A stretch of 23,291 bases of DNA from positions 1 to 23,291 of the IMG/VR virus record IMGVR_UViG_3300047375_001061; one strand, written 5' to 3'. Of the stretch, positions 15,080 through 21,638 are shown one piece after another. Source of the DNA: a virus. The notes beneath the pieces are model-generated. The model ran no database searches. It saw only the letters and a program-made list of their open reading frames with translations, and was not told where the DNA came from. The position numbers and the translations under genes are program-made. Numbering within the stretch: the first letter of the stretch is position 1; each line of letters opens with the position of its first letter.

Positions 15080-17472
15080 TAGATACCCCTATCGATAGTG
15101 CCAGCTATTTTATTGCTAAGCTCCGACGCTTTAGTGTCCGCATCTTTAGCTTTAGCTTGTGCTTCTAGCTGTTTTGCATCTGCAAGCTTCTGGTTCGTCT
15201 CTTCATCTTGCAGTAATTTGCCAGCGGCAATGTCACGCTTACTTTGTATTTCAGTCAGCTTAACTTGCAACTGTTGTTGGACAGATTCCGCTTTACTTTG
15301 CAATCCCATCAAAGCGGTTTGCCCAGATACTTCGGTCATAGCTTCGATCTTTATCATCTCTCGATAATGCTTACGCTCGTCGCTAATCATGTCTAACTGT
15401 AATCGAGCATCTTTTTCTGCTTTCTCGATTTCTATCTTCATTAATTGGATTTCTATTTCTGCTTCCTTAGTCTCCTGTTGAGCAGCCAACTTTTCTTGCT
15501 CAATTTGCACCTCGGGCGGTATGGTCGGATTCTCAGCTTCTATTTGCGCGCGTGACATTTCTTCATCAATCGTTTCGACAAATCGACCATCTGGGAATTG
15601 CATACCAGATTGAATTTCACGCAACATTGCCGTCGCTTTAGAACCGGGCGTCGCGCCACCACCTGTCAGCTGATAAAGCTGAAACAAATTTTGTGTATTG
15701 ACTTCTCGCTGCATCAAAACTGATGAGCCTCGAGGTTCAATTTCCATCGGACCTTTGTACGCATCATCATCTTCATACTGCATCAGCCAATCATACAAAC
15801 GAGTCAATGTTTCTTTGGTAATCTCGTCATCAAAATCTCTGACTTGTCGTCGCCGGCTTACCGACGCATTATTTTGATAAATCTGCGTAGCACCGAGCGT
15901 CACTGGCGCATTGTCAACACCGATCTCATTTTTCTCGATGCGTGTTACACCCGTAAGCTTGTAAGCATCTTCCTCAGCCTTTTCCATAATCGCAAAGAAC
16001 TGATTAAGCGCTACTGGTATCTCGTGAATCTCAAAAGGACGACCTCGAGCACCATCTGGCAAATTAAACATGTCACTATTAATGTGCCAGACCTTGCCAG
16101 CTTGCAGCGAGTAATCAGATTTGTTGTTACCCGCGGGGCTGACCTTGTCTTTCATCATAGACACCATTGGCACTGCAGATAGACCGCCATGGTCCAGTAT
16201 CATGCGCCAAACAGCGTTGTAAATGAGCTGGCAGTTTTCTGCCAGGATAGGAATGCCCTTTCCGAGAACGCATGTTGGATCTTTTGACCAATTCCAAATG
16301 CTAAATGGCATCTCGCCACTATCAAGCGGATTCAAATAAGCTTTCAGACAGCGCGACTCCGAATGGACGACGCAAGCTAATATTGTCTCGTAATCTTTAA
16401 CGCTTTCCTTAATGCCTTTAACACCAGCTTTACGAAGAAGACCCACTTGGAATTCTGCGTGAGTTTCGAATACCTCATAGCGACTTTCATATAGCTTTTC
16501 GACAAGCGCGGAGTCTTTGAGTGAGAGTCTTTCAACTGCGCCCTCAGAGCCGCTCTCTCCAATTTTGCGCGGAGGAAAAGATAATAAGGCATCAATTTCA
16601 TCTTCATAATATTTTCCGCTACCTTTTAGCTGTCGTAACTGTCTTGGCAGATTCCAAAGCCGTACAGAGGCATAAGCCATGTCTTCTTTTGTTTCTGCCG
16701 ACATATCCGGTAAAAAGTCGAGCACATTGACGACCGAAAAGTCAGCTTTGTGCCCTTGTTTGTTCATCAGCTGCCAATTATCACCTTTAACTGCCCAGTG
16801 TTTGCTGCCAGCATGATTAACATATGGTCCTTTTAAAATAGCTGTGCCAGTACGCGCAGCATCGTGAATTAAGCGTCGTCCTAAGCGACCAAATCGGACT
16901 CGCTCGAGGTTAGCTGACACGATTTCTCGCATGCGAACGCATTTGGCTTCTAACTCAACCTTTCTGGCCTCCCAAGCTTGCTGATGAGTGACCTGATTAC
17001 CTTCGGGGTCGAGTAAGGGGGCACCAGTTTGGTCAACTGCGCCTTCGTTTTTCATTTTAATGGGGGGTCGAGCAGGGTAAACAGGTAAGATGCCGTAATT
17101 ATCTTGGTCTGTCGGATACAACATGTCACCAAGCTGGCTCGCACCATCGTCAGTCAACTGCCGCACGATATTTTGAACAACTTTACTGCCATCTTTTACT
17201 GCTTTACGACTACCTTCCCAGTCGTGCAAAAGGTCATCCGAGGCGTCGATGCTACAAGCGTTATAGAGCTTAGATGCTCTTTTAATTTCATCGCTGAATG
17301 TGCTCGTGTTCCGGTCCCGAATACTTTCGTTGACAAGCGCAAGCGCCTCTCGGGCTAACTGGTCGCGAGCTTGTTTAAGCTCACGCTCTTCGCTGCTCAT
17401 ACGTTTGGGCTCTTCTTCTTCTGCTGCCCATGCCTCATCGTACTGTGCGTCGATTGGAGTTATTTTAGCCAT
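15079..17472 (-). CDS. Portal (head-to-tail connector) protein, large form (797 aa)
   Basis: It lies directly downstream of TerL, with an 8-base overlap, in the usual portal place. The body contains podovirus portal features, for example DGASQLGDMLYPTDQDNYGIL near residue 115-135, AARTGTAILKGPYV, a WRMILDHGGLS segment and RRRQVRDFDDEITKETL. Residues about 645-780 are a long Gln/Lys/Glu-rich coiled coil (EKLAAQQETKEAEIEIQL), like a barrel extension. T7 gp8 is 536 residues, so this is clearly longer. The N-terminus carries YDEAWAAEE at residues 11-19, resembling the scaffold end motif. The last codons (…TIDRGI, stop) contain the ribosome-binding site of the next gene. Confidence 0.85.
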   Translation of the reverse strand: MAKITPIDAQYDEAWAAEEEEPKRMSSEERELKQARDQLAREALALVNESIRDRNTSTFSDEIKRASKLYNACSIDASDDLLHDWEGSRKAVKDGSKVVQNIVRQLTDDGASQLGDMLYPTDQDNYGILPVYPARPPIKMKNEGAVDQTGAPLLDPEGNQVTHQQAWEARKVELEAKCVRMREIVSANLERVRFGRLGRRLIHDAARTGTAILKGPYVNHAGSKHWAVKGDNWQLMNKQGHKADFSVVNVLDFLPDMSAETKEDMAYASVRLWNLPRQLRQLKGSGKYYEDEIDALLSFPPRKIGESGSEGAVERLSLKDSALVEKLYESRYEVFETHAEFQVGLLRKAGVKGIKESVKDYETILACVVHSESRCLKAYLNPLDSGEMPFSIWNWSKDPTCVLGKGIPILAENCQLIYNAVWRMILDHGGLSAVPMVSMMKDKVSPAGNNKSDYSLQAGKVWHINSDMFNLPDGARGRPFEIHEIPVALNQFFAIMEKAEEDAYKLTGVTRIEKNEIGVDNAPVTLGATQIYQNNASVSRRRQVRDFDDEITKETLTRLYDWLMQYEDDDAYKGPMEIEPRGSSVLMQREVNTQNLFQLYQLTGGGATPGSKATAMLREIQSGMQFPDGRFVETIDEEMSRAQIEAENPTIPPEVQIEQEKLAAQQETKEAEIEIQLMKIEIEKAEKDARLQLDMISDERKHYREMIKIEAMTEVSGQTALMGLQSKAESVQQQLQVKLTEIQSKRDIAAGKLLQDEETNQKLADAKQLEAQAKAKDADTKASELSNKIAGTIDRGI

Positions 17473-18994
17473 AATTAGTTATATCCCGACTTAGTGTTCT
17501 CACATTAGTTTGCGTCACAAACTCAGTATGTTTTTTGAGTTGGTCATAATCTGGGTGAGCGAAGATACACAAATATTGCAGCGCATCATGTGGATGACTT
17601 TCGCGGCTCTTACATGGCAAGTCTTTATAAGTAGCCCGGCCAGTAACCTGCTTGCGGTCATACTGATAGCTTTGATTAAAACCTTTGATCAGCATCTTGC
17701 TATTTTTGTCGATCTGGAAAAGTGGTAGCCCTGTGTTTGTCTTTGAGGTAAGAAAGTGCCGTACAGCATTTAATCGCATCTCAATATGGTTACTTGGCGC
17801 TGGCGCGGTCTTAAACCAATCCTTAAACACACCGACGCGCTCATCGTTGAGCACATGAAAGTAATTGCGATTCTTTTCCGCTAGGCCATGACTTGATAGT
17901 CCAGCAGGGTCACCGATAGAAAATATCTTCCAACCTTCAGATCCACAATGTTCTTGCAACCAAGGTTTAACAAAGTCAGTTGCAAAGTCGCGGAGCCCGA
18001 TGTTATCGCCGAAAAATTCTTCGACTAATCGTAACTGGCCGCTGGGCATAACCTGACCGACTACACAACTCTCGCCACCAGCACCCCAATCCCAGCCTAA
18101 AATAACCGGGTGCTCTTTCACCAACTGTAGTCCCGCTTTACTGATGTGGTAATCATGGTCCCACTGTCTTTTATAGACCGCCTTACCACTCGAGGTGACA
18201 CCGTACCGTCCCTCAAATAAAACTTTAACTTGCTCAGGCGTTAGCGTCGGTATGCGGTCAAGGTAATATCGCTTAGGGCCAACACCAATGTATTTAAAGT
18301 TCTCGCCTTTTGGATTTAGCTTGTAGCCCAGATCAGATTTACTATCTTTGAGTATTGCCGGGGGCTGTCTAAAGAACTCCCAGCCCATCGGCGTATTTTG
18401 CTCAATCTGTGAGACCCACGAGTCATCCTCTGGCGGGTTCGTGTCCATTATTAAAGAGACACGAGTAATAGGTTTATTTTCATCAATCGCATCTACTGGC
18501 GCAGGGTAACGTCCTAGCCTTGAGTAAACAGCACTGACGATTTCACTATCCATCGCGCCGCACTCGTTTATAAATGCGCCGGTCAGTTCGAGTGACTTTA
18601 AGTTCTCGTAATCTTCCGGTTTCGCAACCGCTTGGAAGATAAACTCAGCTCCCATCTTCGTGCCATCGGCTAACTTGTCGGTCCACCGTATCTTCATCGG
18701 TGCTGACATTGTGTAGCGGCGAGTCGTCTGGTTTGGCTTAAGCCATAGCTTAAAGCTGGCAAAAGTCGTTTCCAGTAGCTGCGGATAGGTTTCCCGCACA
18801 ATGACATACTTACTGGACCTGACATTATCTTTATCAGGCCGCTGCAGCATTGCCATTTTTAGCAACTCGATAATCATCATTGTCGATTTGCCCGATCCTA
18901 CATTGCCGAGAACAATTCTGATGTCGGCATTTGAGTTGTGGAATAGCATCCCAGTGGGGCTCGGATGGTACGCCACTATTTTGTCTTCAAGCAT
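17465..18994 (-). CDS. terL: Terminase large subunit (packaging ATPase and nuclease)
   Basis: Both enzyme halves are visible. The ATPase has Walker A GNVGSGKST at residues 30-38, a Walker B-like segment GAFINEC with catalytic Glu144, and a coupling motif LIMDTNPP at 181-188. The RNase H-fold nuclease has its acidic residues in GWDWG (Asp302), IGDPAG (Asp362) and HPHDALQYL (Asp470). At 509 residues it is of normal length and appears intact. It would drive DNA into the prohead through the portal and cut concatemers. The ATG has AGGA upstream, and the gene follows the small subunit by 8 bases. The portal starts inside its last codons. Confidence 0.93.
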   Translation of the reverse strand: MLEDKIVAYHPSPTGMLFHNSNADIRIVLGNVGSGKSTMMIIELLKMAMLQRPDKDNVRSSKYVIVRETYPQLLETTFASFKLWLKPNQTTRRYTMSAPMKIRWTDKLADGTKMGAEFIFQAVAKPEDYENLKSLELTGAFINECGAMDSEIVSAVYSRLGRYPAPVDAIDENKPITRVSLIMDTNPPEDDSWVSQIEQNTPMGWEFFRQPPAILKDSKSDLGYKLNPKGENFKYIGVGPKRYYLDRIPTLTPEQVKVLFEGRYGVTSSGKAVYKRQWDHDYHISKAGLQLVKEHPVILGWDWGAGGESCVVGQVMPSGQLRLVEEFFGDNIGLRDFATDFVKPWLQEHCGSEGWKIFSIGDPAGLSSHGLAEKNRNYFHVLNDERVGVFKDWFKTAPAPSNHIEMRLNAVRHFLTSKTNTGLPLFQIDKNSKMLIKGFNQSYQYDRKQVTGRATYKDLPCKSRESHPHDALQYLCIFAHPDYDQLKKHTEFVTQTNVRTLSRDITNYG

Positions 18995-19002
18995 GTGAAT
19001 TC

Positions 19003-19647
19003 CTAGTGGACTAGCTCATCAATCTCATCGGTCTCATCAACAACATCGCTTAGGTCAGTGCCATCGTCTGGCGCAATGTATTCCTCGTCTTGTATAGACG
19101 CGAAATTGAAAACAAGAGGAGCTTGCTGATCGAGAATCGATTGGTCCCACATCATTAACTTGCTTAGCATTTGGACAGCTCTGTGCTGCGCCATGTTGTC
19201 CCAGCAATATGTGCCATCATGATTTCTCATGATGAAGCTAGTGGCGCATCGGAAGCGAGGCTCTATGTCTTTGGGCTCTTTAGGTACGACAGTGAACTTA
19301 CCTTTTACTTCAGTCCCATTGCCGTTTACATAGGGCACTCGGGTCGCTACGTCATCGAGCGCAGCTAAAGATTGATTCAGTAAGCGCTGGCAGATAGCTG
19401 CCCTGCCCTGATCAAGTTGATCTAGTTTAGTCTGCAAATATTCTTCAATTGCGCTAATTATCTTTGGATCATTGAATAACTTATTTACTGTCTCATGAAG
19501 CTGATTGTTATTGTCAACGTAACCCGCAGTCTCAGCGGCAAGTGTCTTATCGAGACACTCCGCGTAAGCTTTGACTAGCTTTCTTTTCTTTGGAATTAGA
19601 GAGTCCAAAATTGGAGTGTCATAGATTTTCTTTTTTGTGGAGTCCAT
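19003..19647 (-). CDS. Putative terminase small subunit (214 aa)
   Basis: The protein starts MDSTKKKIYDTPIL. It has basic and helical sequence to about residue 100 (KKRKLVKAYAECLDKTL), a middle beta segment with KGKFTVVPKEPKDIEPRFRC, and a very acidic C-terminal tail (about 190-212, DDGTDLSDVVDETDEIDE). The place directly before TerL, the size and the acidic tail fit a DNA-recognition subunit of the terminase, but I see no diagnostic motif. I chose the ATG at 19647 because AAGGA lies 8 bases upstream. An upstream in-frame extension to 19794 would overlap the preceding gene deeply and adds only shadow-like sequence. It overlaps the upstream peptidase gene by 29 bases. Confidence 0.65.
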   Translation of the reverse strand: MDSTKKKIYDTPILDSLIPKKRKLVKAYAECLDKTLAAETAGYVDNNNQLHETVNKLFNDPKIISAIEEYLQTKLDQLDQGRAAICQRLLNQSLAALDDVATRVPYVNGNGTEVKGKFTVVPKEPKDIEPRFRCATSFIMRNHDGTYCWDNMAQHRAVQMLSKLMMWDQSILDQQAPLVFNFASIQDEEYIAPDDGTDLSDVVDETDEIDELVH

Positions 19648-20098
19648 TGGAAGAGTCCTTTTTGCGTACACGATATTTGCGGATGCCAAACTCAACGCCG
19701 CTGCAAGAATCCATCTTGCATGCCAGGCGAATCGCTTGCGGTCCAGTTTTACCAGCAAGTAAAGCAGCAAGCGCAAAGCTACCGCCTGTACCAATAGCGA
19801 AGGGGGTTGTCATAGGGGCCGGCAGCATTGTGCCACCGTAGTATTCACATCTGCTTTCACTCACGAGCATGATCTGCCAATCGCCAGCATCAACAATGTA
19901 TGAATCATCGGGCGAGCTGTTAGTGGGCAAAAGCAATCGCTTAACGACGACTGTAGCTTCAGCAATGTCGCCAGCTACTGCACAAAAAACGCCGTTCTTC
20001 TGAAATATTTTCTGGCAAGCGCCTTGATCAATAACAGCACCAGTAATGCTTCGGGTATCCGCACATATGAATTCTCCATCCCACACGCAAGTTGTCAT
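19619..20098 (-). CDS. HslV / proteasome-beta-like Ntn-hydrolase peptidase (159 aa)
   Basis: With the ATG at 20098 the protein begins MTT, so removal of Met exposes Thr as in HslV, where TT is the mature N-terminus. Counting from that Thr, Asp13 (in CADTR) and Lys29 (in CQKIF) are 16 residues apart, the same spacing as the catalytic-site Asp17 and Lys33 of HslV. A later IGTGGSFALAALLAG (residues 102-116) matches the IGSGG...A.AA region of HslV and proteasome beta subunits. The ribosome-binding site GAGG is well placed for this ATG, whereas a GTG two codons earlier would bury the Thr. No HslU-like ATPase is in the window. The substrate is unknown; scaffold or host proteins are possible. Family call by pattern only. 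Confidence 0.75.
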   Translation of the reverse strand: MTTCVWDGEFICADTRSITGAVIDQGACQKIFQKNGVFCAVAGDIAEATVVVKRLLLPTNSSPDDSYIVDAGDWQIMLVSESRCEYYGGTMLPAPMTTPFAIGTGGSFALAALLAGKTGPQAIRLACKMDSCSGVEFGIRKYRVRKKDSSNGLHKKENL

Positions 20099-20105
20099 AA
20101 GCACC

Positions 20106-20597
20106 TCACGTTAGTAGCAAAATAGCAATCCAAATAGTGAGGCCCAAAGCGACAGTTGCGGCGGCTATGAAAATACAATCCATAATAAAAGCACGGTCTT
20201 TTGCAGCCTGTTCAGCTCTACGCGCTTTCTCCTGTTTAATCTTACGTCTCTCTTTGATTAAATCTCGGTAAAGGTCACCGCGCCCGCTGTAGATCATTAT
20301 CTCCCTAAGCGCTTCTTCTTTTTTTAGAAGGTCGTCTCTGGCGAATACAATCTCAGCGGCGTTATCTTCTATCTCTTCCTTTCGGAAGATACGCTCAAGC
20401 AATGAAGGCGTATTGACCTTCTTTTCGTGAGCACTGAGTAACTCTTTGGCTGTCCAGAATTTATCAAATGTTTTACCGATACCTCGGTTGATAACATCAA
20501 TATCATCTCTTGCACTGCTAACAGCTGACGCTGTTTTTGACAGTAACTTAAATGCTGCGTTGGCCGCCGATATAGCGGCTAAGATTTCTGCTCCCAC
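20106..20597 (-). CDS. C-tail-anchored coiled-coil membrane protein (163 aa)
   Basis: The N-terminal 30 residues are Ala/Ser-rich helix. Residues 30-135 are charged and helical with a likely coiled coil. The segment IMIYSGRGDLYRDLIKERRK (100-119) resembles a motif recurring in uncharacterised phage membrane proteins. One hydrophobic segment (about 138-162) closes the protein, leaving almost no tail. Translation starts at GTG with GAGGT upstream. It sits between a tiny Lys-rich gene and the HslV-like peptidase. The bulk is predicted cytoplasmic. A holin-like or membrane-scaffold function is possible, but nothing decides it. Confidence 0.7.
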   Translation of the reverse strand: MGAEILAAISAANAAFKLLSKTASAVSSARDDIDVINRGIGKTFDKFWTAKELLSAHEKKVNTPSLLERIFRKEEIEDNAAEIVFARDDLLKKEEALREIMIYSGRGDLYRDLIKERRKIKQEKARRAEQAAKDRAFIMDCIFIAAATVALGLTIWIAILLLT

Positions 20598-20696: not shown

Positions 20697-20954
20697 TTAG
20701 TTATCAGAAACTCCACTATCACTTTTGCTGGTTGCTTCAGCCGGCCCTCGTGCTTCCTCTGCTGCTTCTTCTACAGCGAGGCATAGGTCCGGGGCACTAG
20801 CACCAACGAGTACACTACTTGCCATCCTTGCGGTTGCTCGAAGGCCACGATAGACGTCTGAGCAATACAAAGAATGATTGTCGATCATCCTGTCACTTAC
20901 CGCGCAGCCTTGTGAGAGCATCGCGATAGCCATGAGGGGAATTAACTTATTCAT
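20697..20954 (-). CDS. Small lipoprotein (85 aa)
   Basis: A short basic N-terminus, a hydrophobic stretch and then SQGC ending at Cys17 give a type II signal peptide, although the lipobox has Ser at -3 and Gln at -2 and so is not ideal. Ala at +2 would favour the outer membrane in a Gram-negative host. The mature part has two further Cys (31 and 58) and an acidic, Ala-rich tail. The start overlaps the upstream hydrolase by 8 bases. Phage outer-membrane lipoproteins near the terminase can be Rz1-type spanins, but this one lacks the Pro-rich character of Rz1, so that remains a weak guess. Confidence 0.7.
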   Translation of the reverse strand: MNKLIPLMAIAMLSQGCAVSDRMIDNHSLYCSDVYRGLRATARMASSVLVGASAPDLCLAVEEAAEEARGPAEATSKSDSGVSDN

Positions 20955-21558
20955 ATGTTTGATACCTTGATTCGTGAACTAGAGAGTTAATGATGAGCGG
21001 CGCAAAGTACGTCAACTTCTCAGCTCTCGCGAAGTCAGAATGCTTCCGCGATGAGACAGCGTAGTCATCTTGTTTATTATGATTTCTCATTCGAAGGTCT
21101 TCACCCTCATATCCGGTCCTACCCATCTCACCCCAGATATTCTTAGGCAGCCATCGAGCAAACTTAACGGGGGCATCACTGGGTGAATACCAAACGTCCA
21201 CTTTGCTAACTTGTGGGCCGGGCACTAGGTCTTTCTCGAGTGCTGGGTTGAGATAAGCCACTTTGTCGATGGGTGCATCGTAAAGTGTCGTCGCAAGGTG
21301 AATCACAGCGCAGCCATTAGAGTGGCCTAGTGCGATGACTGGATGGTCGTTTAAAAGCTTGGCATTACGCGCAGCTTTAGCGAGGCGTTTAGCATGCCTC
21401 TTGTTTTGCGTGTAGACCTGCACAATGTCCATCCACCCCATTCTAAACACTACGGTGTCCCACCCGCGCGTCAGTAGGTAAGGCGAAAGGCGAGCTATGG
21501 TGCCAGAGCCGTTGTCTCGCACGTTGAAGCCGTGTACGAGAAGCGCAGTGCCAGACAT
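20947..21558 (-). CDS. Alpha/beta hydrolase (serine esterase/lipase-like, 203 aa)
   Basis: A nucleophile elbow GHSNG (Ser80) follows the strand VIALGHS, and an LLVHGFN motif (His9-Gly10) provides the oxyanion region, both typical of the alpha/beta-hydrolase fold. Likely triad partners are Asp128 in WYSPSDAP and His173 in SSRKHSDF, in the right order and spacing for a small esterase. There is no signal peptide, so it is probably cytoplasmic. I chose the ATG at 21558 because GAGGT lies 7 bases upstream; an upstream TTG at 21585 would add nine residues and overrun that site. It is the first gene of the late block. The substrate is unknown; it might act on host envelope lipids or small esters. 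Confidence 0.8.
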   Translation of the reverse strand: MSGTALLVHGFNVRDNGSGTIARLSPYLLTRGWDTVVFRMGWMDIVQVYTQNKRHAKRLAKAARNAKLLNDHPVIALGHSNGCAVIHLATTLYDAPIDKVAYLNPALEKDLVPGPQVSKVDVWYSPSDAPVKFARWLPKNIWGEMGRTGYEGEDLRMRNHNKQDDYAVSSRKHSDFARAEKLTYFAPLIINSLVHESRYQTYE

Positions 21559-21638
21559 ATGCGATACCTCATTCAGTATTATCAATAAATTTATAATTTG
21601 TTAGATTTTTGATTTAAAAATTTTCAGAAAAAATCGTC

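Follow-up and report, generated by a model that had tools for sequence, protein, structure and literature searches.

A probable proteasome-like Ntn peptidase of the PPH type encoded beside the terminase genes of a phage

PPH, a proteasome homolog some 140 residues long, has been described in tailed phages and their hosts (Fuchs, Alva, Lupas 2021; PMC8665760), where its sequence cluster corresponds to KEGG OC.1434257. PPH has no propeptide, no H2 and no AAA partner, and its genomic context gave no hint of function (PMC8665760). A phage HslV without HslU had been claimed in 2020 (PMC7823757). The betaproteobacterial proteasome homolog (BPH) is a structurally solved relative without an unfoldase and is inert on standard substrates (PMC5777263), and Connectase illustrates that a proteasome-type fold can also act as a ligase (PMC8665760). 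In HslV, residues F54, F57 and Q114 accommodate the C-terminus of HslU (PMC6429459), and point mutations in the R86/R89/K90 cluster severely cut activity (PMC5777263).

The window analysed here is a stretch of viral DNA of 23,291 nucleotides (IMG/VR record IMGVR_UViG_3300047375_001061), in which a gene directly before the terminase small subunit gene (TerS) encodes a protein that is, at a probability of roughly 0.88, a proteasome-like Ntn peptidase (Table 1). Judged by the published description of PPH features, the protein is very probably a PPH. The phage family is already known, having been described under that name in 2021, and its members have been annotated for years.

Table 1. Coordinates of the peptidase gene, its neighbours and related features in other phages (positions refer to the window unless another record is named).
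Feature	Position	Strand	Evidence or remark
Proteasome/HslV-like Ntn peptidase, 159 aa	19619..20098	(-)	PHROG 1040, predicted fold, conserved active site; probable PPH; ATG at 20098, stop ends 19619, N-terminus MTTCVWDGEF
Ribosome-binding site GAGG and ATG giving M-T-T	20096..20112	(-)	GTGAGGTGCTTATG upstream of ATG
Terminase small subunit (TerS)	19003..19647	(-)	Pfam Terminase_2 1.5e-5, PHROG 51 8.1e-6; ATG at 19647
Terminase large subunit (TerL)	17465..18994	(-)	PHROG 2 1.4e-24; anchor for presence/absence test
163-aa protein directly upstream of peptidase	20106..20597	(-)	hydrophobic C-terminal segment, read from sequence
Alpha/beta-hydrolase-like protein	20947-21585; relative in L204 (223-822)	(-)	near start of leftward unit
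Motif YD[AST]EWA[KR]ED	14753, 13973, 17442	(-)	both ends of putative scaffold; looser copy at portal N-terminus
HslU-like AAA protein	L214 1697-3433 (MW812342.1 105196-106932); MT710307.1 106144-107874		Erwinia and Salmonella jumbo phages
Two adjacent divergent HslV-like genes	L009 3432-4828; L012 2432-3885		Plateaulakevirus phages

The Ntn fold proposed in the first-pass annotation is borne out by both profile and structure searches, and the signal is far above chance. The protein matches PHROG 1040 ('peptidase HslV family') with an E-value of 1.8e-25 over residues 1-146, and its predicted model matches HslV with a Z score of up to 18.5. PHROG 1040 is a broad profile, since it also matches bacterial HslV. 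The Pfam model PF00227 (Proteasome) gave 19.4 bits, below its cut-off of 22.4, and a PDB search with the single sequence was marginal; a profile built from eight sequences of the phage family retrieved HslV and proteasome beta chains from the PDB with E-values down to 7e-10. AlphaFold reached a pLDDT of 35 with six close sequences, and a pLDDT of 87 with a pTM of 0.81 with an alignment of 38 sequences. In the structural comparison (VIA-align), the twelve best rows were all HslV chains, with Z 17.3-18.5 and an rmsd mostly of 2.4-2.9 Å over 136-141 residues, and proteasome beta subunits reached at most 17.2; differences of up to 1 in Z count as ties, so the preference for HslV over beta subunits is mild. 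Matches in BFVD include phage proteins already named Ntn hydrolase, proteasome subunit beta or HslV.

The position of the start codon matters for the nucleophile, and the earlier choice of the GAGG-preceded ATG over a GTG two codons upstream proved sound. All 37 aligned relatives begin MTT at an ATG and the codons upstream of it differ, so the GTG (at 20104), a non-conserved codon inside the Shine-Dalgarno region, is not the start. Many of the relatives were recruited with peptide patterns, one of which is MTTIAYDG and leaves out the Asp, Lys and Gly columns; members recruited by other patterns or by BLAST likewise begin M-T-T, and one annotated phage pair uses a GTG start codon. A scan of promoters and terminators returned nothing above chance. 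The protein directly upstream has no PHROG match and only weak Pfam matches, and the alpha/beta-hydrolase-like protein, likewise without a PHROG match, is encoded further upstream. The reported overlap of the peptidase gene with TerS is present in the window, but it is only 29 nt long and is missing in three relatives (L004-L006), in which about 400 bp separate the two genes. This gap holds an open reading frame of 95 codons on the opposite strand.

In the 38 aligned phage sequences, T2 (the mature Thr1), D14, K30, the oxyanion G43, G103 and G105 are invariant; they align to T1, D17, K33, G48, G123 and G125 of HslV, which are invariant in 28 bacterial HslVs. The catalytic Thr, Asp and Lys first noticed in the window protein are thus conserved in its homologues, and the IGTGG...ALAALLAG segment singled out with them occupies residues 102-116, with the GxG motif at 103-105. 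The serine of IGSGG is a Thr in the window protein, and nine of the 38 phage sequences have Thr or Asn at this position. The spacing of 16 residues between Asp14 and Lys30, which had been read as a further signature, is real in the window protein but is shared by only half of the family (19/38; range 10-17) and is not diagnostic. Purifying selection on the gene is strong, with dN/dS at 0.06-0.10 between the window and close relatives and at 0.06-0.11 over all computable pairs. A spurious frame or a decayed gene, for which small size and nothing else speaks, is ruled out by the invariant catalytic residues, these ratios and the conserved start.

The window protein resembles PPH in its core of about 140 residues, its origin in a tailed phage, its Thr1-Asp-Lys-Gly site, the lack of a propeptide, a compact C-terminus without S12/H5 and the absence of an AAA partner from the window. 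The AlphaFold model has an ordered core (residues 1-148) followed by a disordered tail, and the ATG stands directly before the Thr codon. The region from H1 to the next strand is short; in contrast to PPH, with which the model was compared by description, H2 is reduced but leaves a helix of eight residues (64-71), modelled with low confidence (pLDDT about 64), in its place. Isolate members of PHROG 1040, for example Pseudomonas phage EL gp15, Aeromonas phage 4L372XY gp206 and a protein of Escherichia phage vB_Eco_K-01, share the MTT start, the Asp, the Lys, the GxG and a similar core length within the profile match, although the window protein is about 25-29% identical to them and their gene context differs. 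BPH likewise descends from HslV and has neither the HslU interface nor a propeptide (PMC5777263), but it has H2, carries a pore loop that is long and acidic, and exceeds the phage protein in length. In Plateaulakevirus phages, the first of the two adjacent HslV-like genes begins M-T-C and encodes a longer first hairpin, which suggests two subunit types.

HslV (ClpQ) has the same fold and active site and is the best structural match, but the window peptidase is not HslV proper. It has three fewer residues before the catalytic Asp, and the stretch from the oxyanion Gly to the GxG motif is shorter by 15 (60 vs 75). The NCBIfam HslV models TIGR03692/NF003964 do not match the window protein, and E. 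coli HslV scores 288-304 bits with them. Two further HslV residues, K28 and R35, which we take from the HslUV crystal structures likewise to accommodate the HslU C-terminus, are invariant in 28 HslVs and basic in none of the 38 phage sequences. The window protein has T, V, P, Q and F in place of F54, F57, Q114, K28 and R35, respectively, and its R86/R89/K90 cluster is gone. As stated in the first-pass annotation, no partner ATPase is encoded on the contig: a search for HslU in the 23-kb record, which may be a fragment, found none. In several Erwinia and Salmonella jumbo phages, the family member is accompanied by a 578-residue AAA protein resembling HslU, which scores 197 bits with TIGR00390, below the cut-off of 362 but better than the 126 with ClpX. 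In Salmonella phage pSal-SNUABM-04, for which the genome paper detected no HslU (PMC7823757), the HslU-like protein occurs at 90% identity and is annotated 'putative DnaA protein'. The HslU-like gene of pEa_SNUABM_10 is not beside the peptidase gene, and AAA_5 matches occur in some isolate genomes.

The distribution of the gene was followed in relatives collected by TerL rather than by the peptidase. It lies before TerS in all six TerL relatives that are at least 87% identical and include upstream sequence, and it is absent from the five at 62-80% identity within fragmentary records; since these are fragments, another part of those phage genomes could carry it. Pseudoalteromonas phage Y3, a complete genome whose capsid protein and TerL are 45% and 30% identical to those of the window and whose scaffold position is taken by a weakly similar protein, gave no peptidase match. 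Because the sister phages, which share the TerS-TerL order, are without the gene in their available sequence and the TerS overlap is not conserved, the peptidase looks like accessory cargo at this site. Distant family members are scattered over unrelated phages in unrelated gene contexts, and their 79 neighbour genes revealed no recurring partner, in line with PMC8665760 (PhoH-like proteins were counted three times; ribonucleotide reductase, endolysin, portal and NinG twice each). The gene appears rare in bacteria, given that the window protein had no match in a scan of a genome collection and that two carriers came out of a profile search covering 394 genomes of one order.

These observations bear on what the peptidase might do. 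The accessory pattern speaks against an essential role in packaging or scaffolding; for a host-directed role it counts as neutral or slightly favourable. A head-maturation or scaffold-trimming protease, as earlier proposed, would fit a gene in the same block as terminase, portal, scaffold and capsid, with no other protease candidate in the portal-capsid segment. Yet sister phages with the same packaging genes are without it in the sequence available, the peptidase-less record L208 (26.6 kb) still encodes a scaffold whose ends carry the same motifs, phage Y3 has a related capsid and terminase but no peptidase match in its complete genome, and the distant members sit in contexts of other kinds; general processing of scaffold or head proteins is unlikely, and a head protease of the window phage improbable. 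The motif YD[AST]EWA[KR]ED at the scaffold ends and, more loosely, at the portal N-terminus is conserved in relatives. Its form YDAEWA[KR]ED was considered as a peptidase tag and rejected, because scaffold copies also occur in the record without peptidase; it is possibly a docking motif for head assembly. It had also been suggested that the peptidase borrows host HslU, in which case it would replace or supplement host HslV. HslV is the top structural match and is present in 58 of 60 sampled genomes of E. coli's phylum, so HslU is likely on hand in a host of that phylum, and the jumbo phages pair a family member with an ATPase of their own. With the docking residues missing, however, use of host HslU through the standard HslV dock is unlikely; the window protein falls short of the HslV equivalog model, and BPH, which also lost this interface, did not bring down HslU in pull-downs (PMC5777263). 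Replacement or supplementation of host HslV is an unlikely reading.

A mode of action independent of ATP stands at about even odds for the window peptidase. Host methionine aminopeptidase would remove Met1 and expose Thr1, which would serve as the nucleophile; Asp13, Lys29 (both in mature numbering) and the oxyanion Gly would complete the site. Rings like those of HslV and BPH are the probable form of assembly, and by homology self-assembly into rings is likely. The peptidase would then most likely work independently of HslU, its targets being either polypeptides that are unfolded or only loosely folded or one specific protein, presumably late in infection, since the gene sits in a leftward unit with structural genes. 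BPH is inert on common substrates (PMC5777263), so catalytic activity is not to be assumed and the phage protein may well need a specific substrate or activator; the literature yielded no biochemical test of any phage member. As a special case of such an ATP-independent late peptidase, a counter-defence or host-takeover protease directed at a particular host protein is conceivable, though on the weaker side of possible. Its accessory, clade-restricted distribution, the scatter over unrelated phages in variable contexts and the purifying selection are consistent with it; no linked counter-defence gene was seen, no target is known, and with the packaging genes next to it, expression is more likely to be late than early. 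More specifically still, a free-standing phage mini-proteasome without propeptide or unfoldase that eliminates a single, specific host protein, such as one used in defence, is a speculative and rather unlikely proposal.

For the family, the HslU-like/HslV-like pair of the jumbo phages provides a contrast between members with and members without a phage-encoded ATPase. The window protein is a compact member that combines an accessory pattern with a conserved active site, and a point mutant or removal of the gene in a cultured relative would be informative.
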